This document shows positions 2 through 8,947 of a DNA stretch of 64,000 nucleotides, one piece after another (positions within the stretch are counted from its first letter, which is position 1; the number at the start of each line of letters is the position of its first letter). Under the pieces are notes generated by a model. It made no database searches. It worked only from the letters and a program-made list of their open reading frames with translations, and was not told where the DNA came from. The stretch lies in contig NZ_KL647083.1 in the NCBI RefSeq assembly GCF_000725625.1, positions 124,001-188,000 of the forward strand, given 5' to 3'. The DNA comes from Streptomyces sp. NRRL F-6676 (GTDB lineage: Bacteria > Actinomycetota > Actinomycetes > Streptomycetales > Streptomycetaceae). A program made the translations under genes and the position numbers.

Positions 2-1669
2 GAGCTGACCGCCGGCGCGGGGCGGTACGCGGCGGAGCAGCGGGAGGCGCTGATCGCCGAGGGGGCGGTCCGGCCGTCGGAGCGGTGGCCGGGGTATCTC
101 GAGACCGCGCGGGACATCGAGTGCAACTCGCCCTCCGCCGCGGCCTCCCTCGCCGCCGGACACGGCTCCAACGCGCTGTCGGAGTGGCGGACGGTGGAGG
201 AGGACTTCCCCCTCGTCGACTACCTCGGTCACTCCTGGCGGCCGCCCCGCAAGGCCTGGCTGGTCCGCGGGTCGAACGTGGCGGGGCGGGACCTGGTGCG
301 GCGGCTGTGGCTGCCGGAGGGCCTGGTCACGCTCGCCGCGGCGCACCTCCCGCCGCTCGGCGAGGAGGACCCCACCAAGAGCGCCCTGCGCCGGTACGTC
401 CAGGAGGGCTACGACGCCACCGCCTCGTACAGCCAGAAGCAGGCGCTGGCCGACGAGTTGCACTACTTCCTGACTCAGATGCGGCCCGGCGACACCGTCT
501 GCACGATCTCCGGCGGACAGCTGTACGTCGGCCTCGTCGAGGGGCGGGCGGAGCAGGTCGAGTCCGAGGGCGGGCTCGCCAACCTGCGCCGCAGAACGGC
601 GTGGCGGCCCGAGGGCGTGCCGTACGACGCGCTGCCGGAGGCGTTGCAGCAGAAGCTGTCCGTGCAGCACGACGTCGTGGACCTGACCCCCGTGCTCCCC
701 CTCGTCGACGGACTCGGCCGCAGCGACGAGGAACTGGCCGAGGAGGCCGGGTCCGCGGACGGCGACGCCACCGCGGAGGCGGCGGCCCTCGTCGCCCGCC
801 GCGACCCCGAACTGCCCGCGCCCACCGACGCGCTGGCCGCCGAACTGCTGGTGCACGACCCCGCCTGGCTGGCCGAGGTGCGCGATCTGCTCGCCGACGA
901 GCGGCAGTTGGTGTTCCACGGCCCGCCGGGCACCGGCAAGACCTACCTCGCGCTGAGGCTCGCCGAGTACTTCGGGGGCGGGCCCGAGCAGGTCAAGCTG
1001 GTGCAGTTCCATCCCTCGTACGCGTACGAGGACTTCTTCGAGGGGTTCCGGCCCCAGGAGGACCCCGAGACACGGGAGGTCGCCTTCCGGCTGACCGCCG
1101 GACCGCTGCGCGAGCTCGCCGACCTCGCCTCCCGCGAGGGGAACCGGCACGTCCCGCACTTCCTGGTCATCGACGAGATCAACCGGGCCAACCTGGCGAA
1201 GGTCTTCGGCGAGCTGTACTTCCTCCTGGAGTACCGCAACAAGTCGGTGCGGCTGACCTACTCGGGGGACGACTTCGCGCTGCCGCCCAACCTGTTCGTG
1301 ATCGGCACGATGAACACCGCCGACCGGTCCATCGCCCTGGTGGACGCGGCGATGCGGCGGCGGTTCGCGTTCGTGGAGCTGTCGCCGCGCGTGGAGCCGA
1401 CGCGCGGGCTGCTGCGCCGCTGGCTCGCCCGGGAGGAGCGCGGCGCCGAGCCCGCCGATCTGCTCGACGCGCTCAACTCCCGCATCGACGACCCCGACTT
1501 CCGCATCGGGCCGTCGTACCTGATGAAGAAGGGGGTCTACCGGGAGGGCGGCCTGGAACGCACCTGGCGGACCAAGATCCTGCCCTTGCTGGAGGAGCAC
1601 CACTACGGGGAGGGCGTGGACGTCGAGAAGCGGTACGGCCCGGCGGCGCTGCGGGAGTCGCTGGGGTGA
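2..1669 (+). CDS. mcrB: McrB-like AAA+ GTPase subunit of a type IV (McrBC) restriction system, 5' end outside window
   Basis: The reading frame is open from the first bases of the window, so the N-terminus is missing; GTG 194 is only an internal codon. About 555 residues are visible. The C-terminal half is a McrB-type AAA+ motor: Walker A GPPGTGKT near visible residue 307, Walker B FLVIDEINRAN near 387 (the DEINRA form is typical of McrB), and sensor segment IGTMNTADRS near 435 followed by AAMRRRFAF. In E. coli McrBC this subunit is a GTP-driven ring that recognises modified cytosine and translocates DNA for the McrC nuclease. The N-terminal specificity region here does not resemble a domain I can name, so the recognised modification is unknown. 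The stop overlaps the mcrC start (GTGA), which indicates translational coupling. Confidence 0.9.
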   Translation, partial: ELTAGAGRYAAEQREALIAEGAVRPSERWPGYLETARDIECNSPSAAASLAAGHGSNALSEWRTVEEDFPLVDYLGHSWRPPRKAWLVRGSNVAGRDLVRRLWLPEGLVTLAAAHLPPLGEEDPTKSALRRYVQEGYDATASYSQKQALADELHYFLTQMRPGDTVCTISGGQLYVGLVEGRAEQVESEGGLANLRRRTAWRPEGVPYDALPEALQQKLSVQHDVVDLTPVLPLVDGLGRSDEELAEEAGSADGDATAEAAALVARRDPELPAPTDALAAELLVHDPAWLAEVRDLLADERQLVFHGPPGTGKTYLALRLAEYFGGGPEQVKLVQFHPSYAYEDFFEGFRPQEDPETREVAFRLTAGPLRELADLASREGNRHVPHFLVIDEINRANLAKVFGELYFLLEYRNKSVRLTYSGDDFALPPNLFVIGTMNTADRSIALVDAAMRRRFAFVELSPRVEPTRGLLRRWLAREERGAEPADLLDALNSRIDDPDFRIGPSYLMKKGVYREGGLERTWRTKILPLLEEHHYGEGVDVEKRYGPAALRESLG

Positions 1670-2955
1670 GCACGGTCGTCGAGCCGGTCGAGCACGGGCC
1701 GGCCCGGAGCATCGACCTCGTCGAGTACGGCCCGGCCCGCAGCATCGCCCTGCCCGACGCGGTGGGGCGGGCGCTCGCGGTCGGGAACGTCGTGGACGCG
1801 GCCCCGGACCCGTACGCGCCCGGGCACTGGTCACTGCGCGCCGGCAGCAGGGTCGGCGCGGTCGCGCTCACCGTGCCGGGGGCCGGGGCGCCCGTGACCG
1901 TGCGGGTCGCCCCGAAGGTGCCGATCGCCCGGCTGTTCTTCCTGCTCGGCTACAGCCTCGACCCGAGGGGCCCCTGGCGGGAGGGGGACGTCGACGTCGC
2001 CGGGCACCGGGAGCTGCTGCCCGCGCTCGCCCACGCCGTCGAACGGCAGGTCGACCGGGCCCTGCGGCAGGGCCTGCTCCAGGGCTACCGGGAGACGGAG
2101 GCAAGCGCCCTGGTCGTGCGCGGCCGGATCCGGGAGGCCGAGCAGATCCGGCGGCGGTTCGGCGCGGTGCCGCCGGTCGAGGTGGCGTACGACGAGTTCA
2201 CCACCGACATCGCGGAGAACCGCCTGCTGCGCATGGCGGTGGAGCGCCTGCTGCGGCTGCCCGGCGTGCCGCGCGAGGTGCGGCGCCGGCTGCTGCACCA
2301 GCGGGCCCGGCTCGCGGACGTCACCCCCGTCATACGCGGGCAGCGGCTGCCGGACTGGCGGCCGACCCGGCTCAACGCCCGCTACCACCAGGCGCTGCGC
2401 CTGGCCGGTGCCGTCCTGGAGGACGCCTCGCCCGAGCACGCGCCCGGCGGACTGCGCATCGAGGGGTTCCTGTTCGACATGAACCGGCTCTTCGAGGACT
2501 TCGTGACGTGTGCCCTGCGCGAGGCGGTGCGCGGCTCGGGGCACACGGCCCGGTTGCAGGACGCCCACACCCTCGACGAGGCGTCGGCCGTCCGGATGCG
2601 GCCCGACTTCGTGCTCTACGGGCCGGACGGCACCCCGTGCGCGGTCGCGGACGCCAAGTACAAGGCGGAGAAGGCCGTGTACAAGGTGCGGGCGCGGGGC
2701 CGTCTCCCGCGCGGGCCGGGCGGTTTCCCCGAGGCCGACCTGTACCAGATGCTGGCGTACTGCACCGCGCTCGGCCTGCCCGAAGGGCACCTGGTCTACG
2801 CGAAGGGCAACGCCGCGCACGCCGCCCACCGGGTGCGCCACGCGGGCGTTCTGATCCACCAGCACGCCCTCGACCTGGACCAGGAACCGGCGGGGCTGCT
2901 GGCCGACATCGCCGAGGTGGCGCGACGGATGCGGGTGAGCGCCGCGCCCGTATGA
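1666..2955 (+). CDS. mcrC: McrC-family nuclease subunit of the McrBC restriction system
   Basis: 429 residues from GTG 1666, which overlaps the mcrB stop. The open frame continues upstream to position 85, but that part is the out-of-frame shadow of mcrB. The protein shows the McrC layout: an N-terminal beta-rich domain and helical middle, then a PD-(D/E)xK nuclease core with RPDFVLYGPDG near residue 311 and VADAKYK near 328 supplying the catalytic D...DxK residues. McrC docks on the McrB ring and cuts DNA during translocation. Coupling to mcrB and the 31-bp gap to the next gene on the same strand suggest one operon. Confidence 0.9.
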   Translation: MSTVVEPVEHGPARSIDLVEYGPARSIALPDAVGRALAVGNVVDAAPDPYAPGHWSLRAGSRVGAVALTVPGAGAPVTVRVAPKVPIARLFFLLGYSLDPRGPWREGDVDVAGHRELLPALAHAVERQVDRALRQGLLQGYRETEASALVVRGRIREAEQIRRRFGAVPPVEVAYDEFTTDIAENRLLRMAVERLLRLPGVPREVRRRLLHQRARLADVTPVIRGQRLPDWRPTRLNARYHQALRLAGAVLEDASPEHAPGGLRIEGFLFDMNRLFEDFVTCALREAVRGSGHTARLQDAHTLDEASAVRMRPDFVLYGPDGTPCAVADAKYKAEKAVYKVRARGRLPRGPGGFPEADLYQMLAYCTALGLPEGHLVYAKGNAAHAAHRVRHAGVLIHQHALDLDQEPAGLLADIAEVARRMRVSAAPV

Positions 2956-2994
2956 TCGGACACGTTTCGTCCGTTCAGGTGGGGAGTGGGCCTC

Positions 2995-5142
2995 GTGCCG
3001 CAGCTGGCGTTCGCCAACAGCTTCTGGGAGAGCTACGACTCCCTGGAGAAGTCCGTCAGGAACGGCGTGCGCAAGGCGATGCAGAAGTTCCAGCTGCTCA
3101 GCGTCCCGGAGCTGCAACAGGACAAGGGGCTGCACCTGGAGTCGGTCGAGAAGGCCGCCGACACCCGGATGCGGACCATCCGCATCAACGACTTCTGGCG
3201 CGGCGTCGTCCTCGCCCCCGACGACGGCAGCGACGTGTTCCTGCTCGTCAACGTCGTCCCGCACGACGACGCCTACACCTGGGCCGCCAAGCGCCTGTAC
3301 ACGACGAACTCGGCGACCCGCGCGCTGGAGGTCCGCAACGCCGTCGCGATCGACCAGCTCACCCCCGCCCTGGAGAAGGCGGCGGCCGACGCGCCCACGC
3401 TGCTGTTCGCGAAGTACTCCGACACCGTCCTGCGTGAACTGGGCATCGACGACCAGGTGCTGCGGGCGGTGCGGACCGTCATCGACAAGCAGCAGCTCGA
3501 CGCTTTCCAGACGCTGCTGCCGGAGGACCAGTACGAGGTCCTGTACTTCCTGGCCGACGGGTACAGCCCCGAGGTGGTCTACCGGGACGTGGTCACCGCC
3601 CGCCGTCCCGTCGACGCGGGGCCGGACCCGGACGAGAGCCTGGCCGCCGCCATCGCCAACACCCGCAGCCGGATCACGCTGGTCAGCGGGCCCGAGGAGC
3701 TGGCCGACATCCTGGAGAAGCCGTTCGCCGCCTGGCGGGTGTTCCTGCACCCCTCGCAGCGGCGGGTGGCCTATCGGGTGTCGTACGGCGGTCCGGTGCA
3801 GGTCACCGGCGGTCCGGGCACCGGAAAGACGGTCGCGGCCCTGCACCGCGTCAAGCATCTGCTCACCCGCTCCCCCGACAGCCGGATCCTGCTCACCACG
3901 TACACCAACGCGCTGGCGGCCTCACTCCGCGAGAACCTCGCCCTCCTCCTGGGCAGCGGCGACGGCGGCGGCGCGGCACTGCTCGACCGGGTCGAGGTGA
4001 CGACGGTCAACGCGTACGCGCACGCCGTCGTCACCCGTCTCGACGGCAGGGCCCCCTCCCCCGTCGGCGACCGCGACGAACGGCAGCTGTGGAGCCGCGT
4101 CGTCAAGCAGCTCGGCCTGCCGTGGACGGAGCAGTTCCTGGCGCAGGAGTACCGGCATGTGATCCTCGCCCAGGACCTGCGCACCCTCGACGCCTACCGG
4201 GCCGCCTCCCGGCGGGGCCGCGGCAGCGCGCTGTCCCCCGTCAGACGGGAGCAGCTGTGGCCGGCCGTCGAACTGTTCGAGCGGATGCTGCGCGACCGCG
4301 GCTCCACGACCTATCTGAAGGTGTGCGCCCGCGCGGCCGAACTGCTGTCCGCCTCCGCCCCGACACATGACCACGTCGTCGTGGACGAGGCGCAGGACCT
4401 GCACCCCGCGCAGTGGCGGGTGCTGCGCGGCGCCGTACGGCCCGGCAACGACGACCTGTTCCTCACGGGCGACCCGCACCAGCGGATCTACGACGCGAAG
4501 GTGTCGCTCGGCTCCCTGGGCATCCCGGTCGCCGGCCGCACCCACCGGCTGCGCGTCAACTACCGCAGTACGGAGGAGATCCTGGCCTGGTCGACGGGGA
4601 TCATGACACCGGTGTCGGTCGACGACCTCAGCGGCGAGGGCTCCGACACCCTGGCCGGCTACCGGTCCCTGCTGCACGGCCGCAGACCGCACGTGGACGC
4701 GTACGGCTCGGAAACGGCGGAGGTCGCGGCGCTCGTCGAGCGGGTGCGGGGATGGATCGCGCAGGGTATCCGCCCCTCCGAGATCGGCGTGTGCGCCCGT
4801 TTCAACGTGTTGCTCGACAAGGCGTACGACCGGCTGCGCGCGGCCGGGGTGCCGGTGGTCCGGGTCCGGGACAACCCGGGCGCGGACGAGGAGGGCGTGC
4901 GGCTGGCCACCATGCACGCCATGAAGGGGCTGGAGTTCCGGTGCGTGGCGGTGCTGGGGGCGACGGCGAGCGCGGTGCCGTTCATCCGCGAGGTGACGCC
5001 GGCGGCGGTGGACGCGTTGCAGCACGGGTCGGACCTGCTGCGCGAGCGGTGCCTGTTGTTCGTGGCGTGCACGAGGGCGCGGGAGGCGCTGGCGGTGTCG
5101 TGGAGCGGGACGGGGAGTCCGTTCGTACCGCGGCAGCAGTGA
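2995..5142 (+). CDS. UvrD/REP-like superfamily 1 helicase with RelE-like N-terminal domain
   Basis: About 715 residues from GTG 2995, chosen because GGTGGGGAG lies a normal distance upstream; an in-frame GTG at 2986 lies inside that ribosome site. The C-terminal two thirds is an SF1 helicase: Walker A GGPGTGKT near residue 272, DEAQD near 462, a TGDPHQRIYD motif III region, and TMHAMKGLEF near 638 (motif V). Residues 1-115 do not belong to the motor: the segment RIRINDFWRGVVLAPDDG...VVPHDDAYTWAA resembles the RelE/ParE toxin fold, with basic and aromatic residues in similar positions. The gene follows mcrC by 39 bp and probably shares its transcript, so a role in processing cut or invading DNA is inferred, not shown. 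Confidence 0.8.
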   Translation: MPQLAFANSFWESYDSLEKSVRNGVRKAMQKFQLLSVPELQQDKGLHLESVEKAADTRMRTIRINDFWRGVVLAPDDGSDVFLLVNVVPHDDAYTWAAKRLYTTNSATRALEVRNAVAIDQLTPALEKAAADAPTLLFAKYSDTVLRELGIDDQVLRAVRTVIDKQQLDAFQTLLPEDQYEVLYFLADGYSPEVVYRDVVTARRPVDAGPDPDESLAAAIANTRSRITLVSGPEELADILEKPFAAWRVFLHPSQRRVAYRVSYGGPVQVTGGPGTGKTVAALHRVKHLLTRSPDSRILLTTYTNALAASLRENLALLLGSGDGGGAALLDRVEVTTVNAYAHAVVTRLDGRAPSPVGDRDERQLWSRVVKQLGLPWTEQFLAQEYRHVILAQDLRTLDAYRAASRRGRGSALSPVRREQLWPAVELFERMLRDRGSTTYLKVCARAAELLSASAPTHDHVVVDEAQDLHPAQWRVLRGAVRPGNDDLFLTGDPHQRIYDAKVSLGSLGIPVAGRTHRLRVNYRSTEEILAWSTGIMTPVSVDDLSGEGSDTLAGYRSLLHGRRPHVDAYGSETAEVAALVERVRGWIAQGIRPSEIGVCARFNVLLDKAYDRLRAAGVPVVRVRDNPGADEEGVRLATMHAMKGLEFRCVAVLGATASAVPFIREVTPAAVDALQHGSDLLRERCLLFVACTRAREALAVSWSGTGSPFVPRQQ

Positions 5143-5157
5143 CCTGCCGTCCCCGTC

Positions 5158-6816
5158 TCAGTCCCCCGGCCGCAGCGCCCCGTTGCCCAAGCCGTCCCGC
5201 GCCAGCGTCGCCGCCTCGCGGCTGAGTTCCGCCACTCGCCCGGCCCGTTCCTCGAACTCCCGCAGGGCGCGGAACGCCGCGCCGTACCGGCGTTGTTCGT
5301 CGATGTCCATCTGCGGGACGCGCGCGCCCTTGCCGTCCAGGCGGAACGTGCCGCTGGCGCTGGTGGAGCGCCGGTTGTTGGCGGCGCTGCGCAGGAAGCC
5401 GCGCAGGAAGTCCGTGTCGAGCTGGTCGCTGACGGAGGCGGGCTCGGGCGTGCCGTAGGCGACGAGCCCGGCGCGCGCGAGGTCGGCGACGCTGACGGTG
5501 GGGCCGTCCTGGATGCCGGGGCCGTCGGTACCGGTGAGCGCCGGCAGCAGTTCGGCCAACGCCCGTACCTGCTCGGCCAGTTCGTCGCGCAGTGCCTCGT
5601 ACTCGGCGGCGTACTCGCGGTGGGTCTCCACGACGTGGCGGCCCGGGGTGAGGTCGACGGTGTCGTTGAGGAGGTCGATCAGCGCCACGTCGGCGCACTG
5701 GTCGGGCCGTGCCTCGAGCGTGCCGTCGGGGTCGTTCGTGGTGAGGTCGACCATGCGGACGTGAGTGGCGGCGTCGCCCGGGGAGAGCGGGCGGCGCAGC
5801 TGCCACAGGTGCACGGGCAGCGCGTGCGAGACGGCCGTGCCCGGGGGCAGGGCGGTGACCTGGGTGAGGATGCCCCGGCGGACGAGTTCGGCCCGGATGC
5901 GGCGGCCGGCCTTGCGGTAGGCGACGGAGGCGGACATCACCATGAGGACCCGGCCGCCGGGCGCGGTATGCGCGTAGGCGTGCTGGAGCCAGGCGAGTTC
6001 GCCCTCGGCCCGGGAGGGGGTGCCCAGTTCCCAGCGGGGGTCCAGGAGAAGTTCCTCGCGCCCCCAGTCGGAGTCGGCCACCGGTGGGTCGCAGACGACG
6101 AGGTCGGCCCTGAGCCCCGGCAGGCGGTCGTCGCGCAGGGAGTCGCCCGTCTCGATCTCGACGCCGCCGCGTCCGGTGAGGCGGGCGCGCAGCCGGGCGA
6201 AGCGTGCGCTGTCGGCGTCGGCCTCCTGGCCGTACCGCTTCGGTCCCTGCTCGGGGCCGACGGCGAGGAGGAGCGTGCCGATGCCGCAGGCGGGGTCGAG
6301 GAGCGTGGCGTCGGCTGCCGGCTGGCCCGCGAAGTGCCGTACGGCGCGGACGACGCGCGGGGAGGTGATCTGGTCCGAACCGGCCCTGCGGACGGAGTCG
6401 GTGAGGCGTTCGACGAGGGCGGTCACCACGTCGTGCGCGGAGGTGTCCGCCGCCAGGGTGCGCACCAGGCGGGCCGCCTCTGCGGGGAGCCGATCCGGGG
6501 TCTCGTCCGACGGTGCGGAGAGCACCTGTGCGACATCGGCGAGTCCGCGGATCATTTCGTCGCCGTAGGCACTGCGCAGTGCCTGCCACAGCTGGACCTC
6601 GTCCGAGACGTCCTGCCCCTTGCGCTGCCGGTCCAGCCACGCCTGCACCTCGGCGAGGGCGAACAGCGGGCTGTGGGCGCCGCCGCCCGCGGGCAGCGGG
6701 AAGTCGTCGTAACGCCGCCGCCAGTTGGAGACCGCCGCTCTGGTCACCCCCGCGAGCCGCGCGATCTCTGCGCCGGAGACCAGCGGACCGGCGGAGGAAG
6801 CGGCGTTGTCCGTCAT
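5158..6816 (-). CDS. HTH-fused N6-adenine DNA methyltransferase (HsdM-like)
   Basis: 552 residues from ATG 6816; a frame extension to 6888 lacks a ribosome site and runs into the AT-rich promoter. Residues 10-65 form a helix-turn-helix (VSGAEIARLAGVTRAAVSNW). The catalytic domain follows: SAM-binding motif I LLDPACGIGT near 172 and motif IV VCDPPV near 242. HsdM-type enzymes normally carry NPP(F/Y) there; here Asn is Asp and the aromatic residue is Val. The pattern ELAWLQHAY...PGGRVLMVM matches type I modification subunits. No HsdS or HsdR gene is adjacent; the C-terminal 200 residues could hold target recognition. It is convergent with the helicase gene (15 bp between ends), pairing a methyltransferase with a modification-dependent nuclease. 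Confidence 0.85.
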   Translation of the reverse strand: MTDNAASSAGPLVSGAEIARLAGVTRAAVSNWRRRYDDFPLPAGGGAHSPLFALAEVQAWLDRQRKGQDVSDEVQLWQALRSAYGDEMIRGLADVAQVLSAPSDETPDRLPAEAARLVRTLAADTSAHDVVTALVERLTDSVRRAGSDQITSPRVVRAVRHFAGQPAADATLLDPACGIGTLLLAVGPEQGPKRYGQEADADSARFARLRARLTGRGGVEIETGDSLRDDRLPGLRADLVVCDPPVADSDWGREELLLDPRWELGTPSRAEGELAWLQHAYAHTAPGGRVLMVMSASVAYRKAGRRIRAELVRRGILTQVTALPPGTAVSHALPVHLWQLRRPLSPGDAATHVRMVDLTTNDPDGTLEARPDQCADVALIDLLNDTVDLTPGRHVVETHREYAAEYEALRDELAEQVRALAELLPALTGTDGPGIQDGPTVSVADLARAGLVAYGTPEPASVSDQLDTDFLRGFLRSAANNRRSTSASGTFRLDGKGARVPQMDIDEQRRYGAAFRALREFEERAGRVAELSREAATLARDGLGNGALRPGD

Positions 6817-6837
6817 GCGGGCCACCGTACACGGGTA

Positions 6838-6915
6838 ACAGAACCGTCTCAACGGCAAACGTGTTGATGTGGTACACAGCGCACACAATCCGAATGAATG
6901 TATACGACACGTTCA
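6838..6915. promoter_or_regulatory. AT-rich divergent promoter region between the HTH-methyltransferase and the DUF574 gene
   Basis: This is the least GC-rich stretch in the first 10 kb. It contains AACGTGT near 6858 and its inverse ACACGTT near 6908, plus GTATAC at about 6901. It lies between two divergent genes, one of which begins with a helix-turn-helix, so it may hold that protein's own operator. Exact promoter elements cannot be assigned from sequence alone. Confidence 0.35.
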
Positions 6916-7021: not shown

Positions 7022-7843
7022 ATGACGGTTGAAGGCAGCTCCATCGACCCCAGCAAGCCCAGCATCGCACGCGTGTACGACTACCTGCTCGGCGGCAAGG
7101 ACAACTACGCCTCGGACCGCGAGGTCGGTGACGTGTTCAAGCGCGATCTGCCCGGCTCGGTGGCCATCGCCTTCGCCAACCGTGCGGCCCTGACCCGGGC
7201 GGTCGCGGAGATCGCGACGACGACCGGGATACGGCAGTTCGTCGACCTCGGCAGCGGCCTCCCGACCGCCGACAACGTCCACCAGGTCGCCCAGCGGCAC
7301 GCGCCCGAGTCCCGGGTCGTGTACGTCGACATCGACCCCCAGGTACTGGTCCACGGGCGGGCGCTGCTGGAGCAGAACGACCGGACGCGGGTGGTACGGG
7401 CCGACGTGCGCGACCCCGCGGGCGTCCGCAACCACCCGGACACGCTGGAGTTGATCGACTTCGACCGCCCCGTCGCCGTCATGTTCAGCGCGATCCTCCA
7501 CCACGTCAACGACGAGGAGGACCCGGCCGGAATCGTCCGCTACTGGCGCGACCGCGTACCGGCCGGAAGCCACTTCTTCGTCAGCCACTTCCGCTCCGGC
7601 AACAACCCGGAGACCGAGGAGGCCGAGCGCGTCCTCCAGCAGACCTTCGGCCGCGGCCGCTGGCGCACAGACAAGGAGATCGAGGCCCTGCTCGACGGCC
7701 TGGAGATCCTCGATCCCGGCATCGTGCCGGCCTCGCTGTGGCGCCCGGAGACGGTCGACAGCCCGTGGGGCGGCAACGGCGGCGAACAGGACCTCACCGT
7801 CTGGCAACGCCTCATCGCGGCGGGGCTGGCCAGGAAGGCGTAG
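7022..7843 (+). CDS. DUF574-family SAM-dependent methyltransferase
   Basis: 273 residues from ATG 7022, preceded by GAGAGGATGGGGG. It has the actinobacterial DUF574 (Methyltransf_19) signature: PSIARVYDYLLGGKDNYASDR at the N-terminus and FVDLGSGLPTADNVHQVA near residues 73-90 as SAM-binding motif I, then VYVDIDPQV. These proteins are abundant in Streptomyces, often beside regulators of the XRE/DUF397 type, and their substrates are mostly unknown. A clear paralogue lies at 21039-21896. The gene is divergent from the HTH-methyltransferase and ends 23 bp before the convergent ECF sigma gene. Confidence 0.85.
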   Translation: MTVEGSSIDPSKPSIARVYDYLLGGKDNYASDREVGDVFKRDLPGSVAIAFANRAALTRAVAEIATTTGIRQFVDLGSGLPTADNVHQVAQRHAPESRVVYVDIDPQVLVHGRALLEQNDRTRVVRADVRDPAGVRNHPDTLELIDFDRPVAVMFSAILHHVNDEEDPAGIVRYWRDRVPAGSHFFVSHFRSGNNPETEEAERVLQQTFGRGRWRTDKEIEALLDGLEILDPGIVPASLWRPETVDSPWGGNGGEQDLTVWQRLIAAGLARKA

Positions 7844-7866: not shown

Positions 7867-8826
7867 TCAGTCCCAGAGCTGCAGCTTGTCCGGGTTGCGG
7901 ACGGCCCAGATGCGGGTCACGCGTCCGGCGGTGAGGGCGAACGAGGCCACCGTCAGGACGGTGCCGGCGCGGTGGGCGACCAGGCCCGGGGTGCCGTTGA
8001 CCGACCGTTCCGAGAGTTCGAGTCCGGGGGCCCGCTCGGCCATGGCGACCATGTACCGGGCGATGCGCGTACCGCCCTCGACCGGGTGCGGGGCGGCACC
8101 GGCGAGGCCGCCACCGTCCGCGGTCATCACGGCCTCCGGGTCGAGAAGGCCGATCAGGGCCGTGATGTCCCTGCTCTCCCAGGCCTCCTTGACCCGGCGG
8201 ACCGCCTCGGCCTGGCCGGCCGTCACCGCGGCGTGCCCCGCCGCTTCCACCCGCCGCCGGGCGGAGGCCGCCAACTGCTTGCAGGCACCGGGGGTACGGC
8301 CGAGGACGCCGGCGATCTCGGCGAACGAGTACCGGAAGACGTCGTGCAGGACGAACGCCACCCGCTCGGCGGGCGTCATCGTCTCCAGGACGACGAGGAA
8401 GGCCATGGTCACCGACTCGTCGAGGACGATCTGGTCGGCGGGGTCGAGGGACACGGTGGGACCGGCGAGGGCCAGGGCACCGCCGCGATCACCCTCCCGC
8501 CCTCTCCGCTCCCCCCGGTCGGGCAGCGGGTCCGGCAGCCACGCGCCGACATACCGTTCCCGGCGGGAGCGCGCCGACCCGAGCACATCCAGACAGACGC
8601 GCCCGGTCACCGTCGTCAGCCAGGCTCCCGGGGACACGATCCCGTCCCGGCGGCTCCCCGGCAGCGCGTACCAGCGGGCGTACGCCTCCTGCACGGCGTC
8701 CTCGGCCTCGGCCAGCGAGCCGAGCAACCGGTAGGCGACGTTGAGCAGTTGACGCCGCTCACCCTCGACGCCCCCGGCGCCCGCGGCACCCCCGGCACCC
8801 CCGACGTCCGTCCCCACCACCCCCAT
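7867..8826 (-). CDS. ECF41-type RNA polymerase sigma factor with SnoaL-like C-terminal domain
   Basis: 319 residues from ATG 8826 (GTG 8835 is an alternative). Region 2 is LLNVAYRLLGSLAEAEDAVQEAYARW, and region 4 contains YSFAEIAGVLGRTPGACKQLAASARR. The C-terminal 120 residues form a SnoaL-like domain. Marks of the ECF41 group are visible: AWLPDPLPD in the linker (WLPEP-like), TADGGG (DGGGK-like, with the Lys replaced) and VRNPDKL near the C-terminus. In this group the C-terminal domain replaces a separate anti-sigma factor and tunes activity. ECF41 genes usually sit beside an oxidoreductase, epimerase or carboxymuconolactone decarboxylase; here the divergent neighbour is a small membrane protein. 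Confidence 0.88.
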   Translation of the reverse strand: MGVVGTDVGGAGGAAGAGGVEGERRQLLNVAYRLLGSLAEAEDAVQEAYARWYALPGSRRDGIVSPGAWLTTVTGRVCLDVLGSARSRRERYVGAWLPDPLPDRGERRGREGDRGGALALAGPTVSLDPADQIVLDESVTMAFLVVLETMTPAERVAFVLHDVFRYSFAEIAGVLGRTPGACKQLAASARRRVEAAGHAAVTAGQAEAVRRVKEAWESRDITALIGLLDPEAVMTADGGGLAGAAPHPVEGGTRIARYMVAMAERAPGLELSERSVNGTPGLVAHRAGTVLTVASFALTAGRVTRIWAVRNPDKLQLWD

Positions 8827-8947
8827 GCACCGCACCCCCCACTGCGACGACCGCCTCCCGCCTTACCTTTCGCGGCCCCGTGTCGTCGTGCTGGTGAGAC
8901 CTTATCGATCCACGCGGCCTCCGGGCGGCGGAAAAGGGGGACGTGAC

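Follow-up and report, generated by a model that had tools for sequence, protein, structure and literature searches.

A streptomycete McrBC cassette with an optional RelE-like helicase and a degraded methyltransferase-like protein that may regulate its own gene

We analysed a stretch of 64,000 nucleotides from Streptomyces sp. NRRL F-6676 (contig NZ_KL647083.1, positions 124,001 to 188,000; G000:C4:124001-188000 in our numbering), hereafter the window, which begins with a cassette of four genes: mcrB and mcrC, a helicase gene and, facing them, a gene for a methyltransferase-like protein that we call MT. An original prediction from the sequence had described these genes as a possible single modification-dependent defence system, in which the methyltransferase marks or protects self DNA. 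All four genes are present at the predicted positions (Table 1), except that mcrB begins 151 bp before the window. The coupling of mcrB to mcrC, the helicase gene on the same strand and the convergent MT gene are likewise as described, as are the spacings, with 39 bp between mcrC and the helicase gene, counted to the orthologous GTG start at 2995, and 15 bp from one convergent stop codon to the other. The host genome of 8.1 Mb contains a single McrC match. A ready-made name for the gene set was sought among Pfam, NCBIfam and PADLOC models, which assign none.

Table 1. Features of the cassette and of the MT promoter, in window positions
Feature	Position	Strand	Remarks
mcrB, 3' part	2..1669	+	606-aa gene, start 151 bp ahead of the window
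mcrB domains			DUF4357-like N-terminus, uncharacterised middle domain, McrB-type AAA+ GTPase, NTAD signature (MNTADRS)
mcrC, PD-(D/E)xK nuclease subunit	1666..2955	+	PF10117, 175.9 bits; GTGA translational coupling to mcrB
RelE-like domain fused to UvrD/GajB-like superfamily 1 (SF1) helicase (ArmD-type)	2995..5142	+	
RelE-like fold of the helicase	2992..3279	+	Model residues 3-98, counted from codon 2986
MT: helix-turn-helix (HTH), HsdM-like S-adenosylmethionine (SAM)-binding fold, shortened HsdS-like C-terminus	5158..6816	-	
HTH of MT	6697..6777	-	Residues 14-40
Degenerate motif IV of MT	6079..6090	-	DPPV instead of (N/D/S)PP(Y/F/W)
Putative operator GTGTACCACATCAAC	6863..6877	-	Upstream of MT
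Putative -10 hexamer TACGGT of the MT promoter	6824..6829	-	7 bp ahead of ATG; consensus match only
Putative -35 hexamer TTGAGA of the MT promoter	6847..6852	-	17 bp from -10; consensus match only

The first two genes encode a chromosomal McrBC nuclease, probably of Type IV. The Walker A motif GPPGTGKT of McrB is found in 63 of 65 aligned rows and the GTMNTADRS segment in all 65, including the window; in McrC, the PD motif is present in 62/65 rows (3 gapped) and DAK in at least 59/65 (3 gapped, 3 variants), and the window protein has both. The pair thus combines a McrB-type GTPase carrying Walker A and an NxxD signature with a McrC carrying PD-(D/E)xK. The DUF4357-like match at the McrB N-terminus scores just under the cut-off, and a PUA/EVE-like middle domain is a guess made from the sequence pattern; the accessible part of a paper on EVE domains (PMC7641849) offers nothing decisive. 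PADLOC returned no match for McrC.

To follow the cassette through the genus, we surveyed 121 genomes for close homologues, defined by at least 59% identity for McrC, 55% for MT and 61% for the helicase. This gave 21 McrC loci (one partial), 24 MT loci and 18 helicase loci (one partial), after the removal of MT fragments in G069 (75 residues) and G113 (108 residues, 50%) and of a helicase fragment (G057:C1:7328373, 113 residues). McrC and MT are adjacent at 17 of the 21 McrC loci, and McrC lies beside the helicase at 15 of the 18 helicase loci. McrC and MT occur without the helicase in G029:C2, G105 and G047, the helicase and MT without a close McrC in G101, and McrC with the helicase and an MT about 28 kb away in G057. 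The remaining 4/21 McrC loci have no adjacent MT, and a close MT is missing altogether from three of these genomes (G002, G076 and G118).

An MT profile run against named genomes yielded 283 relatives, the best 80 of which were taken by similarity and form no census. McrB and McrC matches are present at 63 of these 80 loci (fragments only in L146), and 52 of the 63 have a near full-length helicase of at least 600 residues, located on the other side of MT in L176; it is absent or incomplete at the other 11, among which L180 may be cut by a contig end. MT stands alone at 14/80 loci, with no McrB, McrC or helicase within the 8-kb flank, and at three further loci (L108, L111 and L126) the matches are partial or weak; two of these loci are close to a contig end. 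The aligned ends of MT and helicase are mostly 17-140 bp apart. On the MT tree, which excludes L086_3 (a plain HsdM) and L164 (a broken MT), at least 7 changes of the McrBC state are required among 77 rows, compared with 9 of the helicase state among 62, and pairwise distances among the four proteins correlate across 51 loci (Mantel r 0.83-0.96, species kinship ignored). The predicted co-occurrence of the four families in the same order and orientation is therefore borne out at these counts. As to a single four-gene system, the conserved cassette speaks for it; the missing or incomplete helicases and the McrC loci without an adjacent MT speak against it.

The predicted RelE-like fold of the helicase N-terminus was confirmed by structure comparison of its model. 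A sequence profile of this segment had found no credible solved relative (best E 1.3), and no RelE family appeared among the 25 of 27 Pfam families displayed for helicase members at E values up to 1; the predicted structure then settled the domain. Residues R66, R72, H93 and D94 are invariant (19/19), which is only a hint at ribosome-dependent RNase activity. In the motor part, the commonest form of each catalytic motif is found in 55-59 of 65 rows, and most rows in which this part survives keep the motifs; the best PADLOC matches, at about 98 bits, are to GajB and NERD-UvrD models. The RelE-UvrD type corresponds to ArmD of the published ARMADA system, as far as the accessible text describes it (PMC12458937), and relatives of the helicase also occur in DISARM-like and type I restriction-modification (RM) loci.

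MT retains SAM motif I and the Rossmann methyltransferase fold of N6_Mtase/HsdM proteins, and lacks a canonical motif IV and a full target-recognition domain. The catalytic motif IV of adenine-N6 DNA methyltransferases has the consensus (N/D/S)PP(Y/F/W). Its aromatic residue is missing in all 103 rows of the MT clade (DPPV in the window), against 5 of 22 outgroup HTH-methyltransferases, which are about 34-46% identical to MT. The C-terminal HsdS-like domain measures 72-75 aa (median 74) versus 116-163 aa (median 150.5) in the outgroup. The HTH is the most conserved MT segment measured (mean majority residue 0.96); the predicted structure places its helices at residues 15-22 and 26-35, and the recognition helix RAAVSNWRRR is common to MT and the outgroup. 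NCBIfam has no match for MT. With the aromatic residue lost throughout and the target-recognition region halved, the predicted marking or protection of self DNA is unsupported. A variant of that idea, in which MT, despite its unusual motif IV, is an active adenine methyltransferase shielding self DNA against a LlaJI-like McrBC that cuts unmethylated sites, appears rather unlikely to us for the same two reasons, and because four of the 21 close McrC loci have no MT next to them and G002, G076 and G118 have none that is close.

A further alternative is that MT is a catalytically dead subunit, which would lend DNA binding to an active methyltransferase encoded elsewhere, in a METTL14-like or M1M2S-like heteromer. 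The solved fold nearest to MT is indeed a subunit of the heteromeric PacII M1M2S, METTL14 with its EPPL is described as a pseudo-methyltransferase partner in the part of the source available (PMC6112310), and MT relatives with DPPL and EPPT (L086:5958-9691 and L087:7323 onward) lead type I RM operons with HsdM, HsdS and HsdR clusters. We nevertheless hold this to be quite improbable, because no further family recurs beside the cassette at most loci (the largest flanking gene cluster has 11 members over 84 loci, where not all flanking genes are annotated) and because the second HTH-methyltransferase of the host genome (699 aa; L198, G000:C2:140500-145500) has HPPF and is itself atypical. Relatives of this second protein are common in the genus and may be catalytically atypical too; its promoter bears a palindrome of the same type as that of MT, GTGAACCGAGTCAAC.

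MT is under purifying selection and outlives mcrBC in several lineages. Median pairwise dN/dS (the ratio of nonsynonymous to synonymous substitution rates), computed from pairs with dS of 0.1-1 that are not independent, is 0.173 for MT in cassettes, 0.258 for MT without mcrBC, 0.269 for McrC and 0.272 for McrB. The nearest MT relative among the best 80, that of S. griseoaurantiacus (L103), has homologues of the window's flanking genes on both sides; the mcrBC-helicase stretch and the gene ahead of mcrB are gone, and 39 bp past the MT stop codon still align, including the last 24 bp of the helicase gene. Similarly, the comparison of L126 with L130 reveals a 7.6-kb jump that leaves the last 41 helicase codons beside MT. 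Since a 3' remnant of the helicase gene adjoins MT in both cases, we read L103 and L126 as probable deletions that removed mcrBC and spared MT. Such retention also argues against self-protection, with the proviso that orphan active methyltransferases can persist too. On the other side of MT, the window encodes a Methyltransf_19 SAM-methyltransferase and a SigJ-like sigma factor (7022-7843 and 7867-8835). L103 also has homologues of both on this side of MT, with other sequence of about 3 kb intervening, so that these genes look like flanks of the site and not like parts of the cassette.

About 60 bp upstream of MT lies a palindrome, GTKKAC-N3-GTCAAC, whose position near -60 is almost constant. 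Counted over 81 loci (the 80 named ones and the window) against the reference GTTGAC-N3-GTCAAC, it is present with at most two mismatches in 69 and with at most three in all 81. The corresponding numbers are 4/810 and 50/810 for shuffled controls, and 43/1500 and 285/1500 for random 250-mers of the same loci, a control set that contains true sites. Three mismatches by themselves mean little, since both controls also yield such matches; the case is carried by the near-constant position and by the right-half CAAC, which is invariant in 81/81 loci. As for the putative -10 hexamer, GTGTACGGT occurs in 50/81 MT upstream stretches, and the transcript is likely leaderless. We considered the palindrome as a mere -35 element; this does not account for everything, as many loci have GTGTAC as their left half and the likely MT -35 comes only after the site.

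The palindrome extends beyond the MT clade. With a matrix derived from the MT sites and untrained on the outgroup, 19 of the 22 outgroup genes have an upstream site above the 95% level of a background that itself includes true sites. Below this level are L183 and L191, with a partial site, and L098, with none; L098 is also the sole outgroup member with an altered helix (RATVTNWRRR). The relatives in L086 and L087, early branches with the same motif IV loss, carry a similar upstream site with 2 mismatches, and this site together with their first position in the operon fits a first-gene regulator. Scanning the host genome with GTKDACNNNRTCAAC, a pattern picked after both HTH-methyltransferase promoters were known, gave 14 places versus 3 for a control pattern; two are the promoters of these two genes, and because several of the 14 fall inside genes we claim no regulon. 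Another operator-like palindrome, GTTGACATCATCAAC, lies on the minus strand about 25 kb upstream of the window (L215:15015-15029; G000:C4:99015-99029). It occupies the divergent promoter that separates a sigma70/MzaA-like gene, neighbour of a DrmA gene, from a kinase-DruE-like helicase gene. Regulation through such a site may therefore extend to a second defence locus.

In a sister branch (L155-L182 without L156, L158, L164, L173, L176 and L180, which leaves 22 loci with mcrB), the site also precedes mcrB. It exceeds the 95% background level in 22/22 mcrB promoters, the best site exceeds the 99% level in 14/22, and a second copy is found farther upstream in 16/22. In all 22 loci it sits just ahead of a TAG-type -10-like hexamer. 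These sites bear on whether MT, mcrBC and the helicase are merely independent neighbours in defence islands that travel together and share no mechanism. The optional helicase, its relatives beside DISARM-like and type I RM genes, the 14 of 80 loci with MT alone and an mcrB without the operator in the window's branch would all be expected of such neighbours. An operator common to MT and mcrB in the sister branch would not, nor would the fixed order and orientation and the short MT-helicase spacing at most loci, and we consider mere neighbourhood improbable.

Overall, we favour a Type IV restriction cassette in which the helicase is optional and MT is a methyltransferase-like transcription factor that regulates its own gene; we assign this reading a probability of roughly 0.6. 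By analogy with their families, McrB would recognise incoming DNA through its N-terminal domains and translocate on it, and McrC would cleave foreign, probably modified DNA; the SF1 motor fused to the RelE-like domain would be an optional accessory. The ancestor of MT would have been an HTH-carrying HsdM-HsdS-like enzyme, which lost the motif IV aromatic residue and about half of the target-recognition region and retained SAM motif I and the HTH. Its descendant is probably not mainly a self-marking adenine methyltransferase. It most likely binds GTKKAC-N3-GTCAAC in its own promoter and autoregulates, perhaps with SAM as a co-ligand, which is a guess; in the sister branch it would also sit on the mcrB core promoter and probably represses mcrBC. 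The distribution of the putative sites supports autoregulation of MT throughout, and control of mcrB in the sister branch only.

Several observations weigh against this interpretation. The outgroup has the canonical NPPF/Y in 8/22 proteins, HPPF/Y in 9/22 and a non-aromatic motif IV in 5/22, so that the contrast of MT with 'active' relatives is limited, and a non-aromatic motif IV would be no proof of activity loss. The window copy of the palindrome, GTGTACCACATCAAC, has 3 mismatches, including one that changes the otherwise strict right half to ATCAAC; at 19.2 bits it lies over the 95% background level (11.5) and under the 99% level (23.1). Most MT promoter sites are below the latter (median 22.3), on a matrix built from these very sites and against the background that contains true ones. 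The early-branching L089 has no match at the usual place, and L090 has one only at -232. In the window's own branch, control of mcrBC is unsupported because the palindrome is absent ahead of mcrB (0/39 loci). The palindrome lies outside the likely MT -35, a position that does not tell repression from activation, and it could be read by another regulator. Finally, a sequence profile of the McrB N-terminus found no credible relative of solved structure (best E 0.27) that would point to a recognition target.

The surroundings of the cassette vary among loci. An SMC/LmuB-like gene lies a few genes upstream of mcrB in L066, L068, L069, L075, L079 and L080, and a HEC-07-like gene adjoins mcrB in L066 and L069 and lies a few genes off in L065, L067 and L068; both clusters were named from one representative each. 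In L071, L072, L073 and L078, sigma70/MzaA-like and DrmA-cluster genes stand back to back with mcrB, in a DISARM-like neighbourhood. A DUF6119 protein, whose function is not known, adjoins MT divergently in L070 (11528-13225), with cluster members in L065, L071-L073 and L086.

Parts of this arrangement are known: McrBC has been found close to methyltransferases, and RelE-UvrD helicases have been described in defence. The comparisons that follow refer to the accessible parts of the cited papers. Bell et al (2024; PMC11090510) note that McrBC often occurs together with predicted DNA methyltransferases, type I RM and DISARM-like cassettes, and the systems described there share with the window the McrB GTPase with an NxxD-type signature and the McrC nuclease; an HTH-methyltransferase with a degenerate motif IV, the operator and this helicase set are window features outside that description. 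ARMADA Type II shares the ArmD-type RelE-UvrD helicase. Its ArmB, however, retains NPPW, and N971A abolishes defence (PMC12458937), whereas the window MT has DPPV. The YprA-like helicase of ARMADA is not in the cassette either: a search of the host genome with the DrmA model found the nearest match about 30 kb away and the other on another contig. No BrxHII-like helicase is among the four cassette genes, for which no dedicated search was made.

The closest functional parallels are methyltransferases that double as regulators. Autoregulation by an HTH-methyltransferase has been proven: M.SsoII uses its N-terminal HTH to bind a 15-bp quasipalindrome within the regulatory region of its own gene and controls the system, and M1.LlaJI, classed as a C5 enzyme, represses its own gene (PMC3978073, PMC3874152 for M.SsoII; PMC3978073 for M1.LlaJI). 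MT shares with M.SsoII, M.Ecl18kI and M.EcoRII the N-terminal HTH and the palindrome in its own promoter, and has no C5 domain: those three belong to Type II systems and are C5 enzymes, whereas MT is N6/HsdM-type, degraded and beside a Type IV nuclease. LlaJI likewise combines McrBC-like nuclease genes with methyltransferase genes (PMC1459862); unlike what is predicted for the window system, it targets unmethylated DNA, and its M1.LlaJI is C5 (PMC1459862, PMC3978073). By analogy, MT may thus belong to the mechanism class of M.SsoII, M.EcoRII and M1.LlaJI, in a different catalytic family (PMC3978073, PMC3874152). Our literature search, which covered the gene set, methyltransferases of restriction systems that are inactive and autoregulators of the HTH-N6 type, and whose scope mostly left subscription papers aside, met no name for the combination of this gene set or for a degraded HTH-HsdM protein with an operator.

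The accessible text of PMC11090510 describes methyltransferase genes next to McrBC as surprising in a Type IV system, and the arrangement is paradoxical because a nuclease attacking modified DNA should need none. If MT is a degraded enzyme serving as a regulator, this paradox dissolves for the present branch, and methylome predictions made from the gene list would be wrong for such strains. The analysis provides a testable operator and a switch from enzyme to transcription factor that would be visible within one gene family, and the RelE-helicase places a published ARMADA component beside another type of nuclease system. More tentatively, and short of an even chance in our judgement, a whole streptomycete lineage of HTH-fused adenine methyltransferases may have become catalytically degraded, SAM-binding transcription switches on restriction systems that retain one operator code, GTNNAC-N3-GTCAAC. 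Such switches would head type I RM operons, face McrBC cassettes and, in one branch, act on the mcrB promoter. If this holds, a methylation enzyme would have become the sensor-repressor of a modification-dependent nuclease.

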